Below, one piece after another: positions 10,111 to 48,520 of a stretch of DNA of 64,000 nt. Where the stretch lies: NCBI RefSeq assembly GCF_025244705.1, contig NZ_CP104207.1, positions 3,224,001-3,288,000 of the forward strand, given 5' to 3'. The notes beneath the pieces were generated by a model that saw nothing but the letters and a program-made list of their open reading frames with translations, was not told the origin of the DNA and made no database searches. Made by a program: the position numbers and the translations under genes. Positions within the stretch are counted from its first letter, which is position 1, and each line of letters begins with the position of its first letter. Source of the DNA: Sphingopyxis sp. PET50. Lineage in GTDB: Bacteria > Pseudomonadota > Alphaproteobacteria > Sphingomonadales > Sphingomonadaceae.

Positions 10111-12912
10111 ATGAACATCCAGAGCTATCGTGCTGCCCGCCTGCTGCGCTGCGGTGCCGCGGGGCTGGCCCTGTCGGCGGCGGCGCTGTCGGTGCCCGCC
10201 ATGGCGCAGGCCGGGGGCGATGCCGCCACGGCGGCCGAGAGTGACGACGACACGATCATCGTCACCGCGACGCGGCGCAGCGAACTGCTGTCCGACGTGC
10301 CGATCGCGGTGTCGGCGGTGTCGGGCGACACGCTGGAGAAGACCGGCGCCACCGACGTGCGCGCGCTGGGCCAGGTCGCCCCGTCGCTGCTCGTGTCGGG
10401 CGCGACGAGCGAGGTCAATTTCACCGCGCGCATCCGCGGCATCGGCACCGTCGGCGAGAATCCCGGGCTCGAAAGCTCGGTCGGGCTGTTCATCGACGGC
10501 GTCTATCGCAGCCGCACCGGCGTCGGCCTGTCCGAACTGGGCGATATCGAGCGCGTCGAGGTGCTGCGCGGCCCGCAAGGCACGCTGTTCGGGCGCAATT
10601 CGACCGCGGGCCTGATCAACATCGTCACCAAGGGGCCCGATCTCAACGGCTTCGGCGCCAAGGGATCGGTGAGCTACGGCAATTACGACTATTGGCGCGT
10701 CGACGGCATGGTCAACGCGCCGCTGGGCGACAGCGCGGCGGTGCGCATCGACGGCGTCTGGCAGCAGCGCGACGGCTTCATCAAGAATGTCACCCCGGGC
10801 GAACCCGACATCAACGACCGCGATCGCTGGCTGGTGCGCGGCCAGTTGGCGTTCGAGCCCAACGACAGCCTGAAGATCCGGCTGATCGCCGATTACAGCG
10901 AGCGCAAGGAAAATTGCTGCGGCGGCATCCTGCTCAACCCCGTGCGCAACCTGTCGCGCGGTCCCGACGGCTTTCCCGTCGCGTCGGCGAACACGCTGCT
11001 GCCCCTGCTCCAGATTCTCGGCGCCAATCATCAGGTCGCGCCGGCGGACACCAGCTTCGTGCGCCGCCAGGCGACGACGCCGGGGGTCACCTATCGCTCC
11101 GACACCAAGGACTGGGGCGTTTCGGGCGAGGTCGGCTGGGACCTGGGCGGCGCTTCGCTGACCTCGATCACCGCCTATCGCGATTACAGGAATGCGCAGG
11201 GCCAGGATGCCGATTTCAGCGCGCTCGACGTGCTGCGGCGCACCGACCTCGACCGCCGCTTCCGCCTGTTCACGCAGGAGCTGCGGCTGCAGGGCGAGGC
11301 GTTCGACGGGCGGCTCGACTGGCTGGTCGGCGGCTATTACGCCAACGAGCGGCTCGATGTCGACGACGACATCGTCTATGGCAACAATTACGAGCAGTTC
11401 GCCAATTGCCTGCTGTTCGCGCAGGCGCTGCCCTCGGCGGTGCTGCCCAGCAACCCGAGCTGCGTCAACGTGCCGGTGGTCCAGGGGACGATCAACGCGC
11501 TGCCGCCCGGCGCGACGCGCAGCCTGCTCCAGGCGCTGATCGCCGATCCGGCGCGGCCGGGCTTCGGCTCGCTCGCCGCGGCGCTCGGCCAGCCGGGCCT
11601 CGCGATCAACGGCACCGGCAACGCCGGCTCGACCTTCGAACAGAAGAGCCGCAACTTCGCGATCTTCACCCACAACAGCTTCGACATCGTCCCCGATACG
11701 CTGACCCTGACGATCGGCGCGCGCTACACCAGCGAGCGCAAGACGCTCGATGCCGATGCGAATTTCAACAATTCCATCTGTTCGCTGGTGGTCAATTCGC
11801 CCTTCCAGTCGCTCGCGAGCCTGCCGTGCGTGATCAACGGCACGGCGCCCGACCTGCCGCGCGGCAGCGCGGGGACCAAATTCAAGGACAATGAATGGAC
11901 GGGCACCGCGGTGCTCAGCTGGAAGCCGGTGCCCGACCTGCTCGTCTATGGCTCGGCGTCGAAGGGGTACAAGGCGGGCGGCTTCAACCTCGACTTCTCG
12001 GCGCTCGACCGGCCGTGCAATACGGCATTCGACACCGCCTGCGCCGCGCGCCTCGCCTTGCCCGCCAACATGCCGGGCAACGGCCGGGCGGAGGCGAGCG
12101 ACCTGCAGTTCGCGAGCGAAAAGGTCGATGCCTATGAATTCGGGATCAAATATGACGGGCCCGGCTTCGACGTGAACCTCGCCGCTTTCTATCAGGAATA
12201 TAGCAATTACCAGCTCAACACCTTCAACGGTGTCAATTTCGAGGTCACCAACATCCAGGCGTGCAAGGACGACCTGGGCGGCGCCGACAGCGACGGGTCG
12301 GCGCTGACGGGTGCCTGCGCGCCCGACCGGCTGAAGCCCGGGGTGCGCGCCAAGGGGATCGAGATCGAGACTTTCCTGCGCCCCGCGCGCCATCTGACGG
12401 TCAATATGGGGCTGACCTATGTCGATACCCTCTATCGCCGCAATCTGGTCGGCACGGGCGGCCGCCCGCTGTCGCCGGTGCTGTTCCAGCTGCCCGGCCG
12501 CGGGGTGTCGAACGCCGCGCAATATGTCGCGACCGCGGGGATCAGCTGGACCCCGCCGATCGGCAATTCGGGGCTGACCGGCCTCGTCTATCTCGACACC
12601 CGCCTGCAGAGCGACACCAACACCGCGTCGGACCTCGACGTCGAGAAGATCCAGGACGGCTTCGCGGTGTTCAACGGCCGCCTCGGCCTCTACGGCCCCG
12701 AGCGGCGCTGGGGCGTCGAGCTGTGGGCGCAGAATATCTTCAACAAGAAATATTATCAGATCGGCGCCGACATGCCGCTGCAGGGCGGCGGCACCTTCCG
12801 CGCCGTGGCGGCGCCGACGGCGAGCGGACTGGCGGGGACGGCGAACCAGCTGTTCGTCGGCTTCCCGGGCGAACCGCGCACCTATGGCGTGACGCTGCGC
12901 GGGCAATTTTAG
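10111..12912 (+). CDS. TonB-dependent receptor 2
   Basis: A 933-residue paralogue of receptor 1. Signal peptide (AARLLRCGAAGLALSAAALSVPAMAQ), TonB box entry DTIIVTATRRSE, plug motifs RIRGIGTVGENPGLESSVGLFIDGVYRSRTG and IERVEVLRGPQGTLFGRNSTAG, and the barrel end TYGVTLRGQF are present. The early loop carries the same Cys-Cys pair (KENCCGGIL). ATG 10111 follows a GAGAGAGAGG ribosome site; GTG 10105 in frame is a weaker choice. Loop regions differ most between the two receptors, which suggests related but distinct ligands. Confidence 0.93.
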   Translation: MNIQSYRAARLLRCGAAGLALSAAALSVPAMAQAGGDAATAAESDDDTIIVTATRRSELLSDVPIAVSAVSGDTLEKTGATDVRALGQVAPSLLVSGATSEVNFTARIRGIGTVGENPGLESSVGLFIDGVYRSRTGVGLSELGDIERVEVLRGPQGTLFGRNSTAGLINIVTKGPDLNGFGAKGSVSYGNYDYWRVDGMVNAPLGDSAAVRIDGVWQQRDGFIKNVTPGEPDINDRDRWLVRGQLAFEPNDSLKIRLIADYSERKENCCGGILLNPVRNLSRGPDGFPVASANTLLPLLQILGANHQVAPADTSFVRRQATTPGVTYRSDTKDWGVSGEVGWDLGGASLTSITAYRDYRNAQGQDADFSALDVLRRTDLDRRFRLFTQELRLQGEAFDGRLDWLVGGYYANERLDVDDDIVYGNNYEQFANCLLFAQALPSAVLPSNPSCVNVPVVQGTINALPPGATRSLLQALIADPARPGFGSLAAALGQPGLAINGTGNAGSTFEQKSRNFAIFTHNSFDIVPDTLTLTIGARYTSERKTLDADANFNNSICSLVVNSPFQSLASLPCVINGTAPDLPRGSAGTKFKDNEWTGTAVLSWKPVPDLLVYGSASKGYKAGGFNLDFSALDRPCNTAFDTACAARLALPANMPGNGRAEASDLQFASEKVDAYEFGIKYDGPGFDVNLAAFYQEYSNYQLNTFNGVNFEVTNIQACKDDLGGADSDGSALTGACAPDRLKPGVRAKGIEIETFLRPARHLTVNMGLTYVDTLYRRNLVGTGGRPLSPVLFQLPGRGVSNAAQYVATAGISWTPPIGNSGLTGLVYLDTRLQSDTNTASDLDVEKIQDGFAVFNGRLGLYGPERRWGVELWAQNIFNKKYYQIGADMPLQGGGTFRAVAAPTASGLAGTANQLFVGFPGEPRTYGVTLRGQF

Positions 12913-39026: not shown

Positions 39027-39116
39027 GCGGGCTTGGCACCGGGCCATCTTCGCTGGCATATCCGCCGACCTTCTGTTAGCCTTGTTCACTTTCTGTTCGA
39101 ATCGGGGCTCCGCCAT

Positions 39117-40140
39117 ATGCCGAATCTTGAACCGGTGCGTCTGCAGGAGGATGAAACGACGGGCGACCGCTTCCTCGTCTATGGCGACGGCACGGGCCTT
39201 CACGTCGAACTCAGCTATGACGGCGACCAGCTCTGGATGACGCAGGCGCAGATTGCCGAGCTTTTTGGGCGCGATGTGTCCGTGATATCGCGCCATATCG
39301 CGAGCATATTGGAAGAAGGCGAACTCGACGAGGCGACTTCTTTGCAAAAAATGCAAAAAAGTCTCGGCAGGCCCACCACCCTCTACAACCTCGATATGGT
39401 CATCTCGGTCGGCTACCGGGTCTCGTCCAAGCAAGCCACGCTGTTCCGTAAATGGGCGACCGAAAAGCTGGTGCAATTCGCGACCAAGGGCTTCGTTATT
39501 GATGCGGTGCGGCTGAAAAATCCCGACAACCGCGACCGCATCGCCGAACTCAAGGAGATCGTCCGCGACATTCGGTCCGACGAGGCGAATGTCTATCGCG
39601 AGCTTCGCTCGATCTGCGCCATGTGCCAGGATTATGACGGCGCATCGCCGACCTGGCGGGATTTCTACAGGAACACGCAGGCGAAGCTGATCTACGCCGT
39701 CTGCTCGAACACGCCCGCCGAAGTGCTGCGCCTTCGCGCCGACGCGGAACAACCCAATATGGGCCTGCAAAGCTGGCCGAACGAGAATATCCGCAAGGCC
39801 GATGCCGGCGACATCGAAAAACTATCTGGCGGAGCGGGAAATCAGGGAATTGAACCGGCTCACGACCATTTTGCTCGATATCTTCGAGGACCAGATGGAC
39901 ATCGGACGCCTGACCCTGATGAGCGATGCGGCAACGCTTTTGGATGCGCAATTATCCAATCTGGGCCGCGCCGTGCTGCGTTCCGGCGGAAGCGTGTCGA
40001 TGGCCGAAGCAATACAACATGTCGAACGCGAATATGCGACGTTCAAGGCAGCGCAGAAGCGACTGCGTCACGAGCGCGCGGATCGCGACATCGCCGAGAT
40101 CAAGGCGGCGCAAAAGAAGCTGGGCAAGCGCCGCGACTGA
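39117..40140 (+). CDS. RhuM family protein (one frameshift)
   Basis: About 340 residues. The RhuM N-terminal domain reads VELSYDGDQLWMTQAQIAELFGRDVSVISRHIASILEEGELDEATSLQKMQ, with a helix-turn-helix, followed by YNLDMVISVGYRVSSKQATLFRKWATEKL and AEREIRELNRLTTILLDIFEDQMD. The family occurs on pathogenicity islands, prophages and mobile regions; molecular role unknown, sometimes linked to toxin-like or DNA-related functions. An A5 run at 39817-39821 has one A too many; with four the frame continues to 40140. It has no accessory neighbours here. Confidence 0.9.
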
Positions 40141-40178
40141 ATCGCCGAAACTCCTGACCGATAAAGGACTGGCGCCGC

Positions 40179-44490: not shown

Positions 44491-45470
44491 CTAAGGTCCT
44501 TCTCTGACCCGCTCGTAGACGTCGAGCCGGTCGCTGCCAAGCAGGCGGCTGTCGGCGAGGCGCCAGCGCCCGTGCGCGGCGGCCAGGTCGGCGAGGCCGA
44601 TATCGCCGAGCGCGGGTCGTACGGCGCCGATCAGGATCGGCGCGCGATAGAGCAGCAGCCGGTCGACGCGGTCGGCGGCGAGAAAGGCCGACGCCGCGCC
44701 GGCGCCGCCCTCGACGAGCAGCGAATCGACGCCCTCGACCGCTTCGGGCGCGGCGGCGGCGGTCCAGCCGGCGGGCGCCGCGCCGCGCGTGAGCAGATAT
44801 TTGCGGGGGCTGCGATCTTCGAGGCCGGGCAGCCGCACGTCGAGCTGCGGCGCGTCGGCGTCGAAAGTGCCGCGCCCGACGAGGATCGCCTGATGCCGCG
44901 CGCGTTCGAGATGGCCGTGCGCGCGCGCGCGCGGACCGGTAATCCAGCGGCTCGACCCGTCGGCGCGCGCGATACAGCCATCGAGCGAGGTCGCCAGCTT
45001 GAGCGTGACGAACGGACGGCCCGACGCCCGCCGCGTCCACCATGGCGCCATCGCGCGCCGCGCCTCGGCCGAGCAGGACATTGAACAGGACGTCGATCCC
45101 CGCGCCGCGCAGCCGGGCGATGCCCTGGCCATTGGTGCGCGGATCGGGGTCCTCCGCGGCGACGACGACCCGCGCGACGCCGAGCGCCGATCAGCGAATC
45201 GGTGCAGCAGGGGCCGCGCGGGCTCGCGTGCGCGCAGGGTTCGAGGCTGACATAGGCGGTGGCGCCGCGCGCCGCTTCGCCCGCCACCGCCAGCGCCATC
45301 GCCTCGGCGTGCGGGCGGCCGCCGGCCTGCGTCCAGCCGCGCCCGGCGACGCGGCCGTCGCGCACCAGGATGCAGCCGACGTTGGGATTGGGCGCCGACG
45401 CGGGGCGGCCGCGCTGCGACAGGGCGATCGCCGCCGCCATCCAGTCGGCATCGGCGGGCGGGCGCCGCAT
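44491..45470 (-). CDS. ribD: Bifunctional pyrimidine deaminase/reductase RibD (two frameshifts)
   Basis: A 325-residue enzyme for the second and third riboflavin steps. Deaminase domain: NPNVGCILVRDGRVAGRGWTQAGGRPHAEAMAL, with the zinc motif HAEA and SLEPCAHASPRGPCCTDSLI. Reductase domain: GRPFVTLKLATSLDGCIARADGSSRWITGPRAR and LLVEGGAGAASAFL. Two +1 lesions, each GCCG[A]GC on the plus strand (45183 and 45072), split the gene into three frames; removing both rejoins it (IGAGVARVVVAAEDPDP; VLPAEARRAMAPWW). Two identical errors in one essential-pathway gene argue for a systematic consensus fault. Confidence 0.92.
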
Positions 45471-45473
45471 CGG

Positions 45474-45974
45474 TCAGCGAGCGGTCGCGGGGGGAGCGGC
45501 GGGCGCCGGTTGCGGGCCGGGCGCCGGCTGCGGGCCGCGCGCGGCGCGTTCGGCGAGCGTCGAGCGTTTGGGCGGCTCGGGCTTTTTCTTCGCCGCCGCG
45601 GCGGCTTCGGCGCCGAGCGTTTCGCGCGTGATCCTGTCCGCCTCGGCCGAATCATAGTCGACCCCCATCATGTCGGCCAGCCGCTGATATTCGGCGCGCT
45701 TTTCGGCGTTGCGCAGCGTGGTTTCCCTGGCGCGCGCTACCCAGTCGGCGCGAATCTCCGCATCGCCGCGCTTGGCGGTCCAATTCTCGAAATAGATGAT
45801 CTGCGCCTTGGGCTTTTCATAAGGGATCAGATATTTCGACACGCCGTTGAAGACCAGCCAGGTCAGCACGATCGCGACGCCCCATATGGCCCAGCGGTGC
45901 GGGCGCGGCTCGCGGATATAGGCCCAGAAATCGGACAGGCCGCCGCCGAGATCGGGAGTGGTGAACATGCGCAT
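45474..45974 (-). CDS. Hypothetical membrane-anchored protein upstream of ribD
   Basis: A 166-residue protein. One helix (WAIWGVAIVLTWLVFNGVSKYLIP) follows a short cytosolic start; the remainder FENWTAKRGDAEIRADWVARARETTLRNAEKRAEYQRLADMMGVDYD is charged and helical, and the last 45 residues are Pro/Ala-rich (QPAPGPQPAPAAPPATAR). Family not recognised; it ends 4 bases before the ribD start, suggesting co-transcription. Possibly periplasmic coiled coil. Confidence 0.7.
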   Translation of the reverse strand: MRMFTTPDLGGGLSDFWAYIREPRPHRWAIWGVAIVLTWLVFNGVSKYLIPYEKPKAQIIYFENWTAKRGDAEIRADWVARARETTLRNAEKRAEYQRLADMMGVDYDSAEADRITRETLGAEAAAAAKKKPEPPKRSTLAERAARGPQPAPGPQPAPAAPPATAR

Positions 45975-46117
45975 GGCGCCAATTTAGGCGATGTCGCGCC
46001 GATTTGCGAGGGGATAGCGATGGCGCGCGGCGCACGTCCGCTCGGCATTACGATTGCAAAAAATGCAACTGCAAATGCTCATTTCGCAGTTGCAACATTT
46101 TTTGTGCGCTGCAATAT

Positions 46118-46182
46118 GAGCATGCCTTTTAGGCATCCTCTCCCAAAACTTTCACGGGCCACCTTCGGGTGGCCCTTTTTTT
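46118..46182 (+). ncRNA. Candidate small RNA with orphan terminator
   Basis: Both flanking genes are on the minus strand, yet the plus strand here ends in a textbook terminator. Upstream of it are a hairpin ATGCC-TTTTA-GGCAT (46122-46136) and an unpaired CCTCTCCCAAAACTTTCAC that could pair with Shine-Dalgarno sequences. A promoter-like TTGCAA (about 46094) and CAATAT (about 46114) are 16-17 bases apart. The plan hairpin, pyrimidine-rich single strand, terminator resembles anti-Shine-Dalgarno sRNAs of alphaproteobacteria. Ends are estimates. Confidence 0.5.
46156..46182 (+). terminator. Orphan rho-independent terminator
   Basis: GGGCCACC and GGTGGCCC pair perfectly around a UUCG-type tetraloop and are followed by seven T. 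No plus-strand protein gene precedes it. Confidence 0.92.
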
Positions 46183-46223
46183 CGACCTTTTTGGTTGAGA
46201 GGGCCGATCCGGCGAAAAGCGAA

Positions 46224-46673
46224 TCAGTCCTGAACCGGGGTCCGCGATTCGAATCGCCGGACTTCGGCGATGAAGCTGCCGGGCAGCGGCGTCGGCTGGC
46301 CGCTGTCGCGGTCGATATGCTGATAGCGGATTTCGATATCGGTCAGCCGCTCCTCGCCCCGGAAAATCGCGCAATGGAGCGTGAAATGGTCGCGCCCGAA
46401 CCGGCTGATCCGCGCCGCGATGGTGATCCGTTCGTCGAGCCGCGCGGGCGCGTGATAGTCGATTTCGCAGCGCACCTCGCGGATGTCGGTGCCATATTGG
46501 TGAAAATAGGGTCCCGGCTGCCCCTCGCCGAGCGCGCGGAAATATTCGGTCACGCCGATGTCGGCATAGACCAGATAATTGCCGTTGAAGACGATATTCT
46601 GCCCGTCGATCTCGTTGAAGCGCACGCGCACCACCTCGTGGACGCGAAAATCGCCAAGCGGAACCTGTTCCAT
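46224..46673 (-). CDS. Hotdog-fold acyl-CoA thioesterase family protein
   Basis: A 149-residue protein with the 4HBT pattern: VRVRFNEIDGQNIVFNGNYLVYADIGVTEYFRALG (active-site region with Asp and Asn), REVRCEIDYHAPARLDERITIAARISRFGRDHFTLHCAIFRGEERLTDIEIRYQHID. It probably hydrolyses an acyl- or hydroxybenzoyl-CoA. ATG 46673 lies 8 bases after the aminopeptidase stop, so the two share a transcript. Confidence 0.85.
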   Translation of the reverse strand: MEQVPLGDFRVHEVVRVRFNEIDGQNIVFNGNYLVYADIGVTEYFRALGEGQPGPYFHQYGTDIREVRCEIDYHAPARLDERITIAARISRFGRDHFTLHCAIFRGEERLTDIEIRYQHIDRDSGQPTPLPGSFIAEVRRFESRTPVQD

Positions 46674-46681
46674 GTCCACGC

Positions 46682-48520
46682 TCAGGCGGCGAGCGCGGCG
46701 GGGCTGCGGTCGAGCGGCGCGCAGGCGGCCGCGAGCCATTCGCGGTCCGCGCCCTCCATCCCCGGCGACAATTTCGCGAACACCGCGGCATGATAGACGT
46801 CGAGCCAGTCGGCCTCGCCGGGCGACAGCAGCGCGACGTCGACCAGGTTCTGCGCGATCGGCGCAAAGGTGATCGTCTCGAACCCCAGCATCTCCTCCTC
46901 GGCGCCGTCGATGCGCTGCGGCACGACGATCACCAGATTTTCGATGCGGATGCCGAAATGCCCCGCCTTGTAATAGCCGGGCTCGTTCGACAGGATCATG
47001 CCCGCGTGCAGCGGCTCCTCGGTCCCCGCCTGCCCCCCGGCGGGCTTGGCGATGCGCTGCGGCCCTTCGTGGACCGCCAGATAGGTGCCGACGCCGTGCC
47101 CGGTGCCATGCGCATAGTCGACCCCGTCGGCCCACAGATATTGGCGCGCGAGAATGTCGAGCTGGCTACCGCGCGTCCCCTTGGGAAAGCGCGCCGTCGC
47201 GAGCGCGATATGGCCCTTCAGCACCTGGGTGAAGCGGCGGCGCATTTCGGCGGTCGGCGTGCCGATTGCGATGGTGCGCGTGATATCGGTGGTGCCGTCG
47301 GCATATTGGCCGCCCGAATCGACCAGATAGAGCGTGCCGGTCTCGATGCGGCGGTTCGTCGTCGCGTCGACCTTGTAATGCGGCAGCGCGCCATTGGGCC
47401 CCGCGGCCGAGATGGTGTCGAAGCTCAGGTCGACGAGCCCGCCGTTCGCCTCGCGAAATTCGCGCAGCTTGGCCGCCGCGCCGAGTTCGTCGAGCCCGCC
47501 CTGCGGCGCGACATCCTCCATCCATTGCAGGAAGCGCGCGACCGCGACGCCGTCGCGGACGTGCGCGGCGCGCGTGCCGTCGAGCTCGGTGTCGTTCTTG
47601 ATCGCCTTGGGCAGCACCGCCGGATCGCGGTGGCGTTCGACCTTCGCGCCCGCCGCCTCGAGCGCGGTGAAGATCGCCGCGACCGCGCTGCCCGGATCGA
47701 CCGCGACCTTCCTGTCCTTCAGCGCGGCAAGCGCCGCCTCGAAGGCGCTGCGGTCGTGGATGCGCACGCTGTTGCCGAGATGCGTCCGCACCGCGTCGGT
47801 GACCTTCCCGGGCGCGATGAACAGGTCGGCGGTGGCGTCGGCGTGGAGCAGCGCGAAGGCGAGCCCGACCGGCGTGTGGCTGACGTCCGCCCCGCGGATG
47901 TTGAAGGTCCAGGCGATCGAATCGAGCGCGGTCATCACGCTGGTGTCGAGCCCCTTCGCCTTCAGCCAGTCGGCGATCGCCTGCCTTTTTTCGACCGCGC
48001 TCTGCCCCGCCAGCCTGACGTCGTGGACCGCGACCGGCGCGTCGCTCGGCGCGGGCTGATCGTCCCACACCGCGTCGATCGGGTTCGACGTGACCGCGAC
48101 GAGTTCGGCGCCCTTCGCCGCGAGCGCCTTCGCGGTCGCGACCGCCCAGTCGATGCCGTGGAGCCAGGGATCGTAACCGACCTTCTGCCCCGCGGCGACG
48201 TTCGCGCCGAGCCATTCGGCGACGCTCGACTGCGGCACGCCGACATAGTCGAACAGCGTCCCGTCGACCTGGTCGCGCACCTGCACCGTGTAGCGCCCGT
48301 CGACGAACACCGCCGCCTTTGCCGGCAGCACCGCCGCCGTCCCCGCCGAGCCGCCGAAGCCGGTCAGCCACGCCATGCGCTGCGCATAGGCGCCGACATA
48401 TTCGCTCATATGCTCGTCGCTGATCGGCACGACGAAGCCGTCGAGCCCGCGCTTCGCCAGTTCGGCGCGCAGGCGGGTCAGGCGGTCGGCGTGGGCCTGA
48501 CTTGGGACGGGGCTGGACAT
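46682..48520 (-). CDS. pepP: Xaa-Pro aminopeptidase (M24B)
   Basis: A 612-residue metalloenzyme removing N-terminal residues next to proline. The creatinase-like N-terminal domains (RLTRLRAELAKRGLDGFVVPISDEHMSEYVG) precede the pita-bread catalytic part with metal ligands in YLVDSGGQYADGTTDITRT, YAHGTGHGVGTYLAVHEGPQ, GMILSNEPGYY and the GIRIENL glutamate. The C-terminal extra domain fits the long (eukaryote-type) form. Start ATG 48520; divergent from the oligopeptidase gene. Confidence 0.94.
   Translation of the reverse strand: MSSPVPSQAHADRLTRLRAELAKRGLDGFVVPISDEHMSEYVGAYAQRMAWLTGFGGSAGTAAVLPAKAAVFVDGRYTVQVRDQVDGTLFDYVGVPQSSVAEWLGANVAAGQKVGYDPWLHGIDWAVATAKALAAKGAELVAVTSNPIDAVWDDQPAPSDAPVAVHDVRLAGQSAVEKRQAIADWLKAKGLDTSVMTALDSIAWTFNIRGADVSHTPVGLAFALLHADATADLFIAPGKVTDAVRTHLGNSVRIHDRSAFEAALAALKDRKVAVDPGSAVAAIFTALEAAGAKVERHRDPAVLPKAIKNDTELDGTRAAHVRDGVAVARFLQWMEDVAPQGGLDELGAAAKLREFREANGGLVDLSFDTISAAGPNGALPHYKVDATTNRRIETGTLYLVDSGGQYADGTTDITRTIAIGTPTAEMRRRFTQVLKGHIALATARFPKGTRGSQLDILARQYLWADGVDYAHGTGHGVGTYLAVHEGPQRIAKPAGGQAGTEEPLHAGMILSNEPGYYKAGHFGIRIENLVIVVPQRIDGAEEEMLGFETITFAPIAQNLVDVALLSPGEADWLDVYHAAVFAKLSPGMEGADREWLAAACAPLDRSPAALAA

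Follow-up and report, generated by a model that had tools for sequence, protein, structure and literature searches.

A PhaR operator predicted in the promoter of the SuhB small RNA gene of Sphingopyxis

The suhB locus and its RNA

Here we analysed a 64-kb window of the Sphingopyxis sp. PET50 genome (the whole stretch of 64,000 nt, numbered from its first letter), focusing on the interval between two minus-strand genes. One flanking gene encodes a 4HBT thioesterase family protein (46224-46694; PF03061, PF13279) and the other a 166-aa protein with no Pfam match (45474-45974). The plus-strand unit between them, at about 46122-46182, is SuhB, an RNA known already from Sphingopyxis. A covariance-model search, as the earlier note had suggested, matched RF00519 (suhB/MmgR) at 46117-46190 on the plus strand, scoring 54.6 bits against a gathering cut-off of 41 and spanning model positions 1-77 of 77. 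This was the sole gathering-level RNA match in the window and the sole match found in the genome. The family layout of a 5′ hairpin, an unpaired anti-Shine-Dalgarno stretch and a GC-rich terminator was recovered by alignment, fold and terminator covariation. The earlier note was right that the plus strand here encodes an anti-Shine-Dalgarno sRNA that has a terminator of its own. Since the RNA is already known, the note's claim of a new sRNA outside any named family falls.

We placed SuhB at 46122-46182, giving 61 nt. The 5′ end near 46122 was inferred from the putative -10 element and from the length of 61 nt that a review (PMC6563040) gives for SuhB of S. granuli TFA; according to that review, this transcript has been seen and is Hfq-bound and Hfq-dependent. 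The two RNAs are likened here by genus, Rfam name and length rather than by sequence. Folding of the 61-nt strand gives -24.3 kcal/mol (z = -4.92), which none of 200 shuffles equalled. At its 3′ end is an intrinsic terminator (46156-46182, plus strand), an 8-bp UUCG-loop stem, GGGCCACC-TTCG-GGTGGCCC, at 46156-46175 followed by seven T up to 46182. As a bare pattern this is weak evidence, because a scan of 2 kb found four terminator-like sites against 1.6 (sd 1.1) in shuffles; promoter or terminator readings from the consensus scan alone were at chance level and were rejected. The perfect stem that the earlier note described, with its seven T, is present, and its pairs are backed by covariation, with two-sided changes at 8/8 pairs and 98.4% of cells paired across 57 Sphingomonadaceae homologues (56 distinct). 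The 5′ hairpin, ATGCC-TTTTA-GGCAT at 46122-46136 (plus strand), is present and folds with conserved inner pairs, but it had no two-sided changes, and its two outer pairs are broken in 25/56 and 15/56 sequences. Judged by pair changes in the 56 distinct homologues, covariation thus backs the terminator and not this hairpin, so that stem-loop conservation in relatives holds for the first and fails for the outer pairs of the second. Between the two lies the unpaired stretch noted earlier, CCTCTCCC at 46137-46144 (plus strand).

A search with the 166-aa gene returned at least 40 loci among the matches listed, 33 of the 40 from Sphingopyxis, and suhB adjoins the gene in 40/40 listed loci (38 by pattern, two by hand). 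The 41 Sphingopyxis-group loci counted below are the window plus these 40, which partly overlap the same-genus genomes of our sample. A 583-aa plus-strand open frame (45042-46793) spans the suhB locus. We take it as a chance frame, since it lies on the strand opposite the thioesterase gene (PF03061) and since the A run after CTCCC, which is 3, 4 and 5 long in 1, 35 and 5 of the 41 loci, shifts the frame. Apart from this presumed chance frame, the open frames of the window include no plus-strand gene close upstream of suhB, in keeping with the view that the terminator serves no annotated gene on its strand.

Across the order, RF00519 was matched in 178/196 genomes, with 154 above the cut-off. 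Some Sphingomonadaceae genomes carry five or six matches (sample G178, G188, G146, G179 and G186). In one genus (g12 of the sample), 8/14 genomes had no RF00519 match under stricter filters and all had PhaR, which may signify loss or drift.

Promoter elements and the predicted PhaR operator

A putative -35 (TTGCAA, 46090-46095) and a putative -10 (CAATAT, 46112-46117; TGCAATAT or TGCAATAA in the genus) were placed by eye on the plus strand with a spacing of 16 nt. This pair, also seen in the earlier note, is plausible and its -10 is conserved, but the consensus scan returned nothing resembling a sigma-70 site at suhB. The -35 lies within a conserved box, here called box 2, TTTCGCAGTTGC(A/G) at 46082-46094, which is present in 41/41 loci. 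Its strict form, TTCGCA(C/G)TTGC, occurs in 50/57 Sphingomonadaceae loci, and a loose form in 56/57 loci inside the family and 1/54 outside. Further upstream is a distal dyad, TTGCA-N5-TGCAA (46054-46068), found in 41/41 loci with a varying spacer and in 10/50 loci of other Sphingomonadaceae genera. We saw no regulon for either element in the genome: beyond the suhB copies, TTCGCANTTGCA from box 2 recurs once, within a coding frame, and the dyad recurs once, within ORF 39033-40157. This second dyad copy (39342-39356) has the same 15 letters as that at suhB, lies in a plus-strand RhuM-family gene (PF13310) and is taken as chance.

A predicted PhaR (AniA) operator at 46099-46119 overlaps the -10. 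We used a weight matrix built from 15 published Sinorhizobium sites (PMC12542648), with mmgR left out of training; a guessed site, TTGCANTGCAA, had no match in the genome and was dropped in favour of the published sites. The operator scored 23.8 bits, the best in the 64 kb, with the next at 12.6. It contains the palindrome YGCRNYGCR with AT-rich arms, here TTTTTGTGCGCTGCAATATGA, that is given as the consensus in PMC12542648. All 41 loci score at least 20 bits and keep the core. The sequence GTGC-NN-TGCAA over the -10 is constant in 41/41 loci except for its two middle letters, which fit purine-N-pyrimidine in every case. The genome encodes PhaR, and the matrix found two sites at its phasin locus (33.4 and 30.7 bits) and one of 20.8 bits at the phaR locus. 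As a positive control, 28/30 Sphingomonadaceae phasin loci reached at least 14 bits; of the two misses, one was cut near a contig start and one had no site. The operator across the suhB -10 is a well-supported prediction, and PhaR would bind there. A literature search for CTGCN3GCAG together with PhaR found no report.

PhaR sites at suhB also appear in other genera. Sites of at least 14 bits occur in 30/51 suhB upstream regions (the window plus 50 of other genera), or 29/50 without the window, against a mean of 1.0 and a maximum of 3 in 20 rounds of shuffling, and such a site turns up in 18/20 genera. Relatedness among the loci means that the counts are not independent. At this threshold 21/50 loci of other genera have no site, and outside Sphingomonadaceae 3/54 loci have one against 2.6 in shuffles. 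The sites fall in the core promoter in 15/57 Sphingomonadaceae loci and 100-200 nt upstream in 20/57, where they may instead serve the divergent gene. In a first control at 10 bits, the promoter stretch had sites in 22/57 loci against 19, 9 and 1 of 57 in three neighbouring upstream stretches. Shuffles were used instead because those stretches held PhaR-like sites near the divergent gene. Co-occurrence of suhB and PhaR was uninformative, since PhaR is present in 113/113 sampled Sphingomonadaceae genomes, 13 of which have no RF00519 match; suhB is also found in genomes of the order with no PhaR match.

In at least 17/57 loci, from 11/20 genera, the gene divergent to suhB encodes 3-oxoacid CoA-transferase subunit A. 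This is a lower bound because just 300-400 nt upstream were read, and calls used a score cut of 40, with loci outside Sphingomonadaceae reaching at most 31. Examples from other Sphingomonadaceae genera are L016 (415-1182), L020 (557-1285), L021 (510-1298) and L027 (529-1512), and 4/4 CoA-transferase genes tested passed TIGR02429. This enzyme handles acetoacetate from PHB breakdown, a ketone-body step. In the present genome the CoA-transferase lies elsewhere, and no PhaR site above 5.4 bits was found at its locus.

The seed and its possible targets

The anti-Shine-Dalgarno core CATCCTCTCC (46134-46143, plus strand) is present in 57/57 best copies from Sphingomonadaceae and in 0/54 outside. Conversely, TTTCCTCCC is present in 54/54 loci outside the family and 0/57 inside. 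This comparison used one copy per genome from 111 of the 178 genomes. We read TTTCCTCCC, from the relatives outside Sphingomonadaceae, as the likely core of the alphar8 10-mer. SuhB is therefore classed with RF00519 and is not counted among RNAs that have the alphar8 seed. In Caulobacter crescentus, SisA-D (alphaR8) have been placed by their authors in the same family and repress TonB-dependent receptor and metabolic mRNAs with Hfq through a conserved 10-mer; many targets of SisA are TonB-dependent receptor mRNAs (PMC12559287). That species has four copies, antagonised by the sponge CrfA (PMC12559287), whereas this genome has one suhB.

We compared seed pairing across the leaders of 61 ORFs of the window, selected by a rough criterion (mean -9.8, sd 3.6 kcal/mol). 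A TonB-dependent receptor gene (10111-12912, plus strand; PF00593, PF07715) ranked second at -17.0 kcal/mol, behind a frame taken as spurious. With TTGGGAGAGAGAGG, a complement of the SuhB seed, in its leader, this gene is a possible target. The phasin and CoA-transferase mRNAs were rejected as targets, with weak pairing of -5.4 and -6.9 kcal/mol; for phasin this runs counter to the MmgR picture.

In 15 Sphingopyxis genomes, TTGGGAGAG-N2-18-ATG occurs 38 times forward and 52 times in reverse, whereas the reversed pattern gives 6 and 7. This excess does not prove targeting, because seven of the counts are suhB itself, some sites with two ATG are counted twice, and the pattern contains the Shine-Dalgarno core. 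Among the 81 loci of these genomes that were read with the 9-mer before ATG, acyl-CoA ligase recurs at seven, FAD-linked oxidase at five, TonB-dependent receptor at five (one being that of the window), amidohydrolase at five (four distinct places), a protein with no Pfam match at three, and aldehyde dehydrogenase and carboxyl transferase at two each, as named by Pfam from one member per group. This recurrence is a lead only, given the Shine-Dalgarno core within the 9-mer and the conservation of whole leaders among close relatives. The predicted targets of SuhB are mRNAs of uptake and catabolic genes.

SuhB as a candidate link to stored carbon

The reading we prefer, which is highly probable when its parts are taken jointly, is that of a Sphingopyxis suhB gene working through PhaR and PHB as predicted here. 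That the RNA instead belongs to a new, unrelated family, as the earlier note proposed, is almost certainly wrong. The seed CATCCTCTCC does differ from the TTTCCTCCC of relatives outside Sphingomonadaceae, but the RF00519 score lies above the gathering cut-off, the model aligns, the family recurs in most genomes of the order (178/196), and SuhB is already reported in S. granuli (PMC6563040).

The earlier note drew a large inverted repeat in the promoter region as a possible regulator site. The repeat is in the sequence but is not conserved as drawn: its 8-bp arms are perfect in 2/41 loci, with the right arm constant and the left arm variable, and we regard it as a by-product of the conserved boxes. 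A regulator site in this promoter is indeed likely, but as the shorter palindrome at 46099-46119. It is improbable that the repeat terminates transcription of the thioesterase gene on the minus strand, a reading suggested by its position downstream of that gene's stop and by a minus-strand hairpin with a T tail that the scan gives at 46094-46064. Against this stand the arms, perfect in so few loci, and an unexceptional fold of the minus-strand RNA (z = -1.02, with 33/200 shuffles as good), and we rejected the repeat as a conserved hairpin or terminator on the same grounds. Somewhat less doubtful, though still unlikely, is that the RNA is SuhB with its promoter under another factor acting on box 2 and the distal dyad, for instance in growth-rate control, with PhaR having a small effect. 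Within the genus, conservation of box 2 and of the dyad equals that of the PhaR core (41/41 each), and the loose box 2 marks suhB family-wide, more broadly than the core-promoter PhaR site (56/57 against 15/57). The matrix score and conservation at 46099-46119 argue for PhaR, as does the PHB effect on suhB reported in a review (PMC6563040), and both factors may act together.

Control of suhB by PhaR, as we prefer, has a precedent in MmgR of Sinorhizobium meliloti, a 77-nt RNA activated by NtrC (PMC8401924, PMC7143759, PMC12542648) and bound by Hfq (PMC8401924). PhaR (AniA) represses mmgR (PMC12542648, PMC8401924) and shifts its promoter in vitro, and changes to the palindromes abolish the shifts (PMC12542648). 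SuhB shares with MmgR the Rfam family, a PhaR site in the promoter (predicted here) and a link to PHB. It differs in length (61 nt by our placement) and in its seed, which departs from those of relatives outside Sphingomonadaceae. The mmgR site lies between the -35 and -10 and ends 13 nt before the start, whereas the predicted suhB site overlaps the -10 and ends 3 nt before the inferred start.

In the proposed mechanism, PhaR bound across the -10 at 46099-46119 would hold suhB down when PHB is low. During carbon-rich growth, PHB granules would form and draw PhaR onto themselves, titrating it off suhB, whose transcription would then start at about 46122 and stop at the 46182 terminator. With Hfq, SuhB would pair through CAUCCUCUCC with the ribosome-binding sites of mRNAs for less-preferred carbon sources (uptake and catabolic genes) and lower their translation. 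In S. granuli, SuhB represses thnR and PHB granules raise suhB transcription, according to the same review (PMC6563040); the operator predicted here would account for such PHB-linked expression. Among the titles listed by literature searches, mostly outside subscription journals, we recognised none that reports a PhaR-suhB link in Sphingomonadaceae.

The broader proposal, for which we see about even chances, is that in Sphingomonadaceae the PHB sensor PhaR has SuhB as its RNA arm: granule formation would free suhB from PhaR, and stored-carbon status would in this way drive catabolite repression of genes for uptake and acyl-CoA catabolism. The seed would have been replaced family-wide by CAUCCUCUCC and the RNA thereby retargeted. 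The predicted operator across the -10 offers a testable cause for the PHB-granule effect on suhB in S. granuli. If true, the wiring of PhaR to an sRNA would extend from Rhizobiales to Sphingomonadaceae.
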